Origin: Prochlorococcus sp. MIT 1341
GTDB taxonomy: Bacteria; Cyanobacteriota; Cyanobacteriia; PCC-6307; Cyanobiaceae
NCBI RefSeq assembly: GCF_034092415.1
Contig: NZ_CP139304.1
Span: 1,100,001-1,164,000, forward strand
Direction: 5' to 3'
DNA: 64,000 nucleotides
Of the stretch, positions 38,237 through 40,959 are shown in pieces; positions within the stretch are counted from its first letter, which is position 1; every line of letters begins with the position of its first letter. The translations under genes were made by a program, and so were the position numbers. The notes beneath the pieces were generated by a model. The model saw nothing but the letters and a program-made list of their open reading frames with translations, was not told the origin of the DNA and ran no database searches.

Positions 38237-39415
38237 CTACGTCCATGGCACCTCACTACCGACTGCTTCCGAAATATGCCTAAATCCATGTTTCTCAAGC
38301 TGCATAAGGATGCCTTCTGAAATGCGAGGGACTAAATCGGGACCTTGAAAAATCCAACCTGTATAAAGCTGCACCAAAGAGGCACCCGCAGTAATTCGCT
38401 CCCAAGCGTCTTTTGAAGAAGAAATGCCCCCAACCCCTACAAGAGGAATAGATGAACCAACTATGGCTCTTAATCGTTTCAACACTTCCAAAGCTCTATC
38501 GCACAATGGTGTACCACTCAGACCTCCAGACTCCTCCTCGAGCGCTCGTCCAGTTTGAGGAAGAACTCTATTTTCTAAACCCAATCTATTTAAACTAGTA
38601 TTCACAGCAATAATTCCTTCAAGACTTTCATCGGTAGCCAATCTTGCTAAATCGTCTATCTCTCGATCTTTTAAGTCTGGAGCAATCTTTACCAATAAAG
38701 GCGGACAACCATCTAGACCACGCAATCGTTCCACTAAAAGCCTTAACTGTCTTGGTTGCTGAAGGTCTCTCAATCCTGGAGTATTTGGAGAGCTGACATT
38801 AAGCACTACATAATCAGCAAAAGGAGCCAACAATTCAAGGGAGGCAAAATAATCATTAGAAGCAAGCTCTAAAGGTGTAATACGAGACTTCCCTAAATTT
38901 ATCCCTATAGGGAAAAGTCGCTGTCCTCGAGGAAGTAAAGCCTGCTGTTCAAGGGTTCTATACATAACCCGAGCCCCCTTATTATTAAATCCCATACGAT
39001 TTAATGCAGCTTGTTCAGCAGCAAGCCGAAATAATCGAGGTCGAGGATTTCCTTCCTGAGCATTAAAAGTAACTGTACCAAGCTCAGCAAAACCGAATCC
39101 AAATCGATCCCAAATTCCAGCCGCAATACCATTCTTATCAAAACCTGCAGCCAGCCCTATGGGATTAGGGAAACAACAACCAAAAAGTCTTTGCTCAAGT
39201 CGCAAATCTAATCGCTGCAAATCTTTTGCCATATCTGATAAAAGTCCAGATAAAAAAGGCCACTCCCTTCGTCGTGACACTTGACCTAAAACAGCCAATG
39301 CAATCTGTGTCAACTGCTCAGCATCAAAACCTTCGTCATTCCTCAAGAGAGGACCAAACCATCGTTGATAAAGATGTGCAGTTGGGCTTAAAGCAACTTG
39401 CGATTTCTCAGTCAT
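38237..39415 (-). CDS. pyrD: Dihydroorotate dehydrogenase (quinone, class 2)
   Basis: PyrD oxidises dihydroorotate to orotate, passing electrons to quinone. [63 protein letters not shown] (catalytic Ser segment), LLVKIAPDL and [28 protein letters not shown] are class 2 signatures; the N-terminal ~60 residues form the membrane-binding extension. At 392 residues it is slightly long. It overlaps rnhA by 8 bp at its start, so the two are one transcript. Confidence 0.96.
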
Positions 39416-40196
39416 TACATCGATCCTCTGATGAAATGATATTTTCCAAATTGTTCCGTAAACGCCACTTTTGGTTACTTAAAGGCTCTATAACCCAATC
39501 TCGCCAAACCCATGACTCAGTAATTGTTCGAATTTTTTCAATAGGCTCTTCGATTAATTGCGCGATCTCACCATCGCTGAGGGTATGACCAGAGTTGGCA
39601 AAATGATCTGCAAGCTCAAATCGTGTCAAAAGCTTCTGCAGATTCATTGGAGCAATATCCGAAATTGCTTTATCTCTAAGACTTGATTCGTGTGGAATTG
39701 AATTATCTTGATGATCAGTCCTGGTATTTAGTTTGATCGAAAGACCTTTGGAAAAAGCAACGGCAATCTTATCCACACGATCATTATCCTTATCCCCGCT
39801 GTGGCCCTTTACATAAGCAAAAGGAACCTGTTGCAATCGAGCATGATCCAAAGCCAACCACAAGTCTTTATTTAATACAGCCTTACCAGACGACGTACGC
39901 CATCCATTTTTTTTCCAAGCTGTTATCCATTTGGTAAAACCATCAATCAAATATTTGCTGTCCGTGCGAATCTGCAAATCTGGATGCATTGAAAACTGCT
40001 TTAGTCGTTTTAATGCTTCCAAAGCCGCCTGCAACTCCATCCGATTATTTGTAGTTGACCTGACGTGTCCTCCAAATTCTTCTAAAAAGCCATTTTCAAA
40101 ACGAAACAGTACAGCCCAACCGCCTGGACCTGGATTACCACTGCATGCACCATCAGTTGCAGCCGCTATTACCCTTCCTAGAGGTTGATCAGTCAT
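39408..40196 (-). CDS. rnhA: Ribonuclease HI with C-terminal extension
   Basis: RNase HI removes RNA from RNA-DNA hybrids. The N-terminal ~150 residues contain the catalytic D-E-D-D set: [44 protein letters not shown] and [18 protein letters not shown]. After it comes a ~110-residue extension absent from E. coli RNase HI, ending in a [19 protein letters not shown] segment that looks like a small folded domain of unknown function. It is upstream of pyrD in the same leftward transcript. Confidence 0.94.
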
Positions 40197-40316
40197 AAAA
40201 AAAGTATGTCAATTTCTTCAAGCATTCATCCTGGAAACTTAATTAGGAACAATACAAATCCCCACTACCACATTCCAACAGAAAGCTAATAAAGTAAAGA
40301 TCTTTCTATAGGACAG

Positions 40317-40347
40317 TTGAAATAGCGCCCCTTTTATAAGGCATAAT
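40317..40347 (+). promoter_or_regulatory. Candidate promoter for the ncRNA at 40354
   Basis: TTGAAA (40317-40322) and CATAAT (40342-40347) lie 19 bp apart on the plus strand, in sigma70-like positions. A start near 40354 would follow. There is no plus-strand protein gene downstream for over 7 kb, so the promoter would serve the small RNA only. Confidence 0.5.
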
Positions 40348-40353
40348 CCTGAG

Positions 40354-40475
40354 ACAGGAAGTTATCTTTACGCTTGTGTGAGGGGTGAGGAATTTTTCAG
40401 GGTCGAAACAAGGAAAGACTCCTGGTAATTTCCACCTAAAAGACCCTGTCTATGACAGGGTCTTTTATTATTCTT
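40354..40475 (+). ncRNA. Candidate small RNA with its own terminator (possibly Yfr2/Cyano-1 type)
   Basis: The 369-bp gap between rplL and rnhA holds no convincing protein. On the plus strand, opposite to all neighbours, a promoter-like pair ends at 40347 and a strong terminator stem lies at 40438-40466, giving a transcript of about 120 nt. The central part contains GTCGAAACAAGGAAAGACTC (40412-40431) and the 5' part GTGTGAGGGGTGAGGAATT (40376-40394). The GAAACA-GGAAA run recalls the Yfr2/Cyano-1 family of abundant picocyanobacterial sRNAs, but I cannot check the alignment. It lacks the 4.5S RNA, 6S, tmRNA and RNase P signatures I know. Confidence 0.55.
40438..40466. terminator. Bidirectional intrinsic terminator (rplL and ncRNA)
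   Basis: AAAAGACCCTGTC (40438-40450), a TAT loop and the exact reverse complement (40454-40466) form a 13-bp stem with A-tract on one side and T-tract on the other. It can end the leftward ribosomal-protein operon about 100 bp past rplL and also the rightward candidate ncRNA. Confidence 0.9.
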
Positions 40476-40566
40476 AAATACATGAAAAATGCCGGCCAAA
40501 AATAAGCCGGCATAACAGAAGGAAACAAAAAATATCAAGAGGAAAGTCTCAATATCAATCAAACAA

Positions 40567-40959
40567 TCATTTAAGGGTGACCTTACCCCCAGCTGCTTCA
40601 ATAGCCTTTTTGACTGTTTCAGCTTCATCTTTTGCAACTCCTTCTTTAATGGTCTTAGGAGCTGCCTCAACCATAGCCTTGGCATCACCAAGACCAAGCC
40701 CTGTAGCTTCTCTAACTGCTTTCAAAACTTTGATCTTGGCTGAAGCCTCAAAGCTTTCAAGCACAACATCAAATTCAGTTTGTTCTTCAGCGGCTTCCCC
40801 AGGAGCTGCACCAGGTGCACCTGGTGCAGCCATAACTACACCAGCAGAAGCAGCAGCTGAGACTCCAAAAGCATCTTCAATTTGCTTGACAAGTTCAGAA
40901 GCCTCCAACAAAGAAAGAGTCTTTAAAGACTCAAGGATTTCATCAGTTTTTGCAGACAT
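40567..40959 (-). CDS. rplL: Ribosomal protein L7/L12
   Basis: This is the dimeric stalk protein that recruits translation factors. The N-terminal helices ([27 protein letters not shown]-type), an Ala/Pro/Gly-rich hinge ([14 protein letters not shown], residues 44-57) and the C-terminal domain ([36 protein letters not shown]) are all present; 130 residues. The hinge is coded by a 26-bp perfect palindrome (40805-40830). Last gene of the leftward operon, 48 bp after rplJ. Confidence 0.98.
40805..40830. repeat. Perfect 26-bp palindrome in the rplL hinge
   Basis: GCTGCACCAGGTG (40805-40817) is followed directly by its reverse complement (40818-40830), with no loop. It lies in the APG-rich hinge, where repeated Ala-Pro-Gly codons favour such symmetry. 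Confidence 0.95.

Follow-up and report, generated by a model that had tools for sequence, protein, structure and literature searches.

In a low-light Prochlorococcus-like cyanobacterium, the gap of about 370 bp between rnhA and rplL very probably holds the rplL-linked yfr2 gene, transcribed from its own promoter into an RNA of about 94 nt that would act in trans as a sponge of Yfr1 and Yfr10. Among the regulatory RNAs of cyanobacteria, the abundant small RNA Yfr2 is one of the most widely conserved. For this gene, we document family membership, structure, conservation, promoter anatomy, and complementarity to the partner RNAs, both of which the genome contains. The features of the locus are as follows.

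39408-40196 (−): rnhA, RNase H domain protein (Pfam PF00075), divergent neighbor
40311-40330 (+): upstream element GGACAGTTGAAATAGCGCCC (GGACAGTT-N5-AGCGCCC), candidate CGRE1 (GntR operator), at about −65 to −46
40363-40368 (+): predicted −10 box TATCTT, with TANNNT at this place in relatives
40376-40469 (+): yfr2, predicted transcript of about 94 nt with inferred ends (RF01701, spacing between 5′ motif and −10 box, homology to MED4 RACE ends, fold)
40376-40387 (+): 5′ motif GUGUGAGGGGUG, complementary to the Yfr1/Yfr10 motif CACUCCUCACAC (conservation, fold, pairing)
40397-40425 (+): central stem with a bulged U and the 12-nt loop GAAACAAGGAAA (covariation, invariant loop core)
40437-40467 (+): yfr2 intrinsic terminator, AAAAGACCCTGTC TAT GACAGGGTCTTTT (hairpin scan, stem covariation)
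40489-40513 (−): rplL-side terminator, ATGCCGGC-TTATTTTT-GGCCGGCAT-TTTT (separate GC-rich hairpin with a T-tract)
40567-40959 (−): rplL, ribosomal protein L7/L12 (Pfam PF00542 and PF16320), convergent neighbor

Identity and structure of the RNA

An Rfam covariance scan of the whole window, that is, the 64,000-nt stretch of DNA analyzed, returned a single match above its gathering score: RF01701 (Cyano-1, the Yfr2 family) at 40372-40440 (+), with 61.4 bits against a gathering score of 41 bits, an E-value of 2.6e-8, and coverage of the full model (1-69). The sequence-only reading had placed a small RNA gene in this gap, which it found free of any convincing protein gene, on the strand opposite to its neighbors. 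The immediate neighbors, pyrD (dihydroorotate dehydrogenase) and rnhA before the gap and rplL and rplJ after it, are indeed all on the minus strand. That reading had also linked the RNA to the Yfr2/Cyano-1 family through GTCGAAACAAGGAAAG, which is present in the gap, and the covariance search agrees with this assignment. Together with the conserved 5′ motif, loop, stems, and terminator and a conserved promoter region of its own, the match strongly supports an independent small RNA gene of the Yfr2/Cyano-1 family at rplL, whose transcript is probably abundant. A 6S RNA, which had been named as a control model, or another housekeeping RNA could also be short, structured, and probably abundant; however, Cyano-1 alone exceeded its gathering score in the whole window, where the 6S model gave no match above its own, and we give this explanation practically no chance.

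Two Yfr2 copies exceeded the cut-off in the genome (1.94 Mb, one contig). Three sub-threshold Rfam matches (15-18 bits) were not counted as Yfr2 copies; two of them are the opposite strand of Yfr1-motif sites.

The segment 40354-40475 folds better than chance (z = −4.7), as does the refined RNA at 40376-40469 (z = −5.5, with 0/200 shuffles equally stable), for which the minimum-energy and centroid structures agree. GUGUGAGGGG at 40376 fits the conserved unpaired Yfr2 5′ motif GUGnGAGGnG, and the first 7 nt are unpaired in the fold. The loop has the AAACAnGGAAA sequence (core GGUCGAAACAAGG) on a stem bulged near the loop, as expected for Yfr2, with a single bulged U after three pairs.

Alignment of the gap across related genomes, a check put forward in the sequence-only reading, found the 5′ motif, loop, stems, and terminator kept in 30 rplL-linked relatives, with compensatory changes. 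GTGAGG and the GT of the 5′ motif are invariant in these relatives, and so is the loop GGTCGAAACAAGG. In the stem and terminator taken together, 97.4% of cells are paired and 12/18 pairs have changed on both sides, versus 5.3 in shuffles; the central stem is 97.8% paired with 5/9 pairs doubly changed, and the terminator stem is 97.0% paired with 7/9 consensus pairs doubly changed. When the alignment was slid as a control, the paired fraction fell to 36-61%. This pattern also bears on the idea that the region is a small-protein gene, suggested by a 30-aa plus-strand frame with a GTG start at 40385. Between the 5′ motif and the stem, relatives carry indels that are not multiples of three, yet base pairing is retained, which leaves a coding role with a negligible probability. 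The RNA is genuine and an ordinary representative of a known RNA family; its gene model is corrected below.

Transcript ends, terminators, and promoter

In MED4 (G119), the Rfam match begins 2 nt before the RACE 5′ end for each of the four Yfr2 copies, and it begins 6 nt before the 5′ ends listed for MIT 9313 and SS120 (Table 2 of PMC1242208 compared with the Rfam places). These offsets predict a yfr2 5′ end at 40374-40378, and the position of the −10 box points to a start near G40376. With this start and the terminator at 40437-40467, the RNA would be about 94 nt long, which falls within the published range of 87-95 nt for Yfr2 (PMC1242208). The small RNA first proposed from the sequence stands, but in place of a 5′ end near 40354 and a length of about 120 nt, about 40376 and about 94 nt are predicted.

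The plus-strand terminator stem with a T-tract that had been noted in the gap is found at 40437-40467, with 14 pairs counting G-T, followed by TTATTATTCTT. It had also been described as shared with rplL. Sharing is not required here: rplL has its own hairpin at 40489-40513 (−), so the yfr2 terminator is at most a backup for rplL. One hairpin common to both genes is plausible only in some short-gap relatives (L055, L058, L064). It could be argued that there is no RNA gene and that the yfr2 hairpin merely serves the rplKAJL operon as a bidirectional terminator, as it is flanked by an A-tract and a T-tract, is the sole hairpin between the two genes in some relatives, and belongs to a type of cluster so listed in Table 1 of PMC1242208 (cluster 226, MIT 9313/WH 8102). 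However, the conserved unit reaches about 130 nt upstream of the hairpin and includes the promoter element, the −10 box, the 5′ motif, the covarying stem, and the invariant loop. In addition, the Cyano-1 model matches most of the rplL-linked loci scanned with Rfam, and rplL here has a hairpin of its own. A terminator without an RNA gene is thus highly improbable.

A TANNNT box is found 4-10 nt before GTGTGAGG in 36 of the 39 distinct relatives, as opposed to 0-3 at control offsets, and TATCTT is the predicted −10 box of yfr2. The sequence-only reading had instead proposed a sigma-70 promoter, TTGAAA/CATAAT. Both hexamers exist, at 40317-40322 and 40342-40347, but we rejected this candidate because its spacer is 19 nt and its −10 columns are not conserved (0.01-0.34 bits in relatives for CATAAT). 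A consensus promoter scan listed no promoter at TTGAAA/CATAAT, and promoter-like sites in the region were fewer than in shuffles (3 versus a mean of 4.8).

TTGAAA lies within the conserved upstream element at 40311-40330, whose consensus GGACAGTTgAaagAGCGCCCc or a variant of it is present 61-65 nt before GTGAGG in 38/39 relatives. The GntR regulator PMM1637 binds yfr2 promoters via a motif named CGRE1 (PMC6778093), and the genome studied here encodes exactly one GntR-domain protein, at G000:C1:1339275-1339460. We infer that the upstream element is probably CGRE1, a GntR operator. The 15-base core pattern of the element has four further exact matches in the genome, one of them inside a tRNA-Ala gene, so the short core pattern alone is not specific. 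The element (CAGTTGaaaTAGCGCC, 40311-40330) also resembles the tRNA D-arm sequence CAGTTGGTAGAGCGC, which is probably a coincidence.

Partners and proposed mechanism

Both known partners of Yfr2 are present in the genome. Yfr1 lies between trxA and guaB (L150:1470-1535; G000:C1 near 459429, −), its known place. The second Yfr2 copy is preceded, about 150 nt upstream and on the same strand, by a Yfr10-like RNA carrying the motif ACTCCTCACAC (L002:1320-1400; G000:C1:748739-748819), an arrangement described for high-light Prochlorococcus strains. A third exact ACTCCTCACAC occurs in the EF-Tu gene (GSITPHTKFEG; L152:1500-1510, G000:C1:1476560-1476570), probably through chance or protein constraint.

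An uninterrupted run of 12 pairs, including one G-U pair, is possible between the 5′ end of Yfr2 and the motif ACUCCUCACAC of either partner. Such 12-pair runs, with G-U allowed, appear in 3-6% of composition-matched shuffles and are not rare, so conservation is the stronger argument for pairing. Only the contiguous 5′ pairing was used, as the full-length duplex energies of Yfr2 with Yfr1 and Yfr10 were no better than those of shuffles. Previous studies reported that the Yfr2 5′ end pairs with the Yfr1 motif (PMC2518516), that the 5′ tail and the 12-nt loop are conserved in Synechocystis (PMC2662882), and, from MED4 and E. coli experiments, that Yfr2 binds Yfr1 and Yfr10 and, in a GFP assay, lifts the repression exerted by Yfr1 (PMC6778093). 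As 12 pairs are possible with both Yfr1 and the Yfr10-like RNA, the published trans-acting sponge or competitor mechanism, in which Yfr2 also has mRNA targets of its own, is the best reading.

Under this mechanism, the plus-strand promoter with its −10 box TATCTT would drive yfr2, and the upstream activator site, probably CGRE1, would be bound by the single GntR-family regulator. Transcription would stop at the intrinsic terminator of yfr2, giving a stable hairpin RNA of about 94 nt that most likely base-pairs with other RNAs in trans. With its 5′ end, GUGUGAGGGGUG, the RNA would capture CACUCCUCACAC of Yfr1 and of the Yfr10-like RNA, so that both are withheld from the mRNAs they target; further mRNAs may pair with the exposed loop of 12 nt. 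Expression, GntR control, sponge action, and the targets of this Yfr2 are extrapolated from the published MED4 work. The place beside rplL would be an old conserved locus that the mechanism does not need.

Alternatively, Yfr2 could influence rplL in cis, either by acting as an antisense RNA against read-through rplL transcripts or through transcription collision, coupling the Yfr2 level to the ribosomal operon. The convergent placement, conserved in 98/101 copies of this Yfr2 type, speaks for such an action. However, rplL has its terminator ahead of the Yfr2 3′ end, at a distance of about 20 nt, which means that normal rplL and Yfr2 transcripts need not overlap. Moreover, the two genes are spaced very differently in different genomes (79-696 nt from the loop motif), and conservation is strongest at the Yfr2 5′ end and loop, not at the end facing rplL. 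We regard action in cis as very unlikely and retain the sponge mechanism.

The rplL link across genomes and comparison with known systems

Yfr2 genes have been stated not to lie at fixed positions (PMC1242208, PMC2662882). We surveyed the location of two loop forms, GGTCGAAACNAGGNNAGAC and GTGGAAACAAGGNNACAC, in 151 genomes of the family. The GGTCGAAACNAGGNNAGAC form, to which the Yfr2 of the window belongs, was found in 100 of the 151 genomes, once in each of them but one (101 copies; one control match in all), and 98 of these copies are convergent with rplL, no more than 800 nt from its 3′ end. The position facing the end of rplL is thereby kept in roughly two thirds of the genomes surveyed. 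The GTGGAAACAAGGNNACAC form includes the second copy of the genome studied here and all four MED4 copies (Yfr2-5); none of its 113 copies, spread over 58 genomes, is beside rplL. GUCG-type Yfr2 copies are away from rplL in G044 (about 570 kb) and G142 (about 6 kb), perhaps through rearrangement or insertion, and G107 has two such copies (C50:19984 and C91:6128) and two rplL genes, each convergent with a copy, maybe from a mixed assembly.

The GGTCGAAACNAGGNNAGAC form also occurs in some cyanobacteria outside the family, and the non-family loci that we examined showed no Yfr2 loop motif in the 600 nt after rplL. From this distribution, the rplL link seems to go back to the ancestor of the family; high-light Prochlorococcus, such as MED4, and several other genera would since have lost it. 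The new finding is a single-copy Yfr2 lineage (loop GUCGAAACnAGGnnAGAC) syntenic with rplL, as opposed to a scattered multicopy lineage; we found no mention of Yfr2 together with rplL in the literature searched, but this search was incomplete and priority for the rplL link is uncertain. One could go further and view the rplL-linked Yfr2 as a distinct vertical sub-family, defined by a GUCG loop, one copy, and a fixed convergent position, with a functional link to the ribosomal operon, the multicopy Yfr2-5 being derived and mobile. We consider this unlikely. If it were true, read-through rplL mRNA could, for example, pair with and remove Yfr2, tying the Yfr1/Yfr2 network to ribosome synthesis.

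Yfr2 belongs to the Yfr1/Yfr10 network in the most abundant phototrophs. The split between a syntenic single-copy lineage (98/101) and a multicopy lineage (0/113) makes the orthologue traceable across genomes, and for functional studies in tractable strains of marine Synechococcus and Cyanobium, the rplL-linked yfr2 is a natural choice. The conserved place beside rplL is the part that may interest specialists.

Axmann et al. (2005) described cluster 226 as a “possible bi-directional terminator of the rplKAJL operon” (PMC1242208). We found a Yfr2 beside rplL at 2204978-2204996 of G052, a genome taken as MIT 9313 since the position of its other Yfr2 agrees with the published coordinates, and cluster 226 apparently occupies the same place. 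The 3′ end of a Yfr2 gene would lie within what was read as a terminator in 2005. This suggests that the terminator listed then is a Yfr2 gene, although later papers may already have corrected cluster 226.

Yfr2b and Yfr2c of Synechocystis PCC 6803 share the loop GUCGAAACAAGGAAA, as deduced from RACE primers (PMC2662882), but they are located directly upstream of slr0199 and sll1477, whose start sites they share, and no rplL link has been reported for them. Similar to Yfr2-Yfr5 of MED4 (RF01701), the RNA described here has an unpaired 5′ motif complementary to the Yfr1 motif, a 12-nt AAACA/GGAAA loop on a bulged stem, a terminator, its own promoter, and a predicted length in the 87-95 nt range. 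It differs from them in its 5′ end (GUGUGAGGGGU here, GUGUGUAGGAG in MED4), in the closure of the loop by GUC/GAC instead of GUG/CAC, and in being a single copy convergent with rplL rather than one of several scattered copies.
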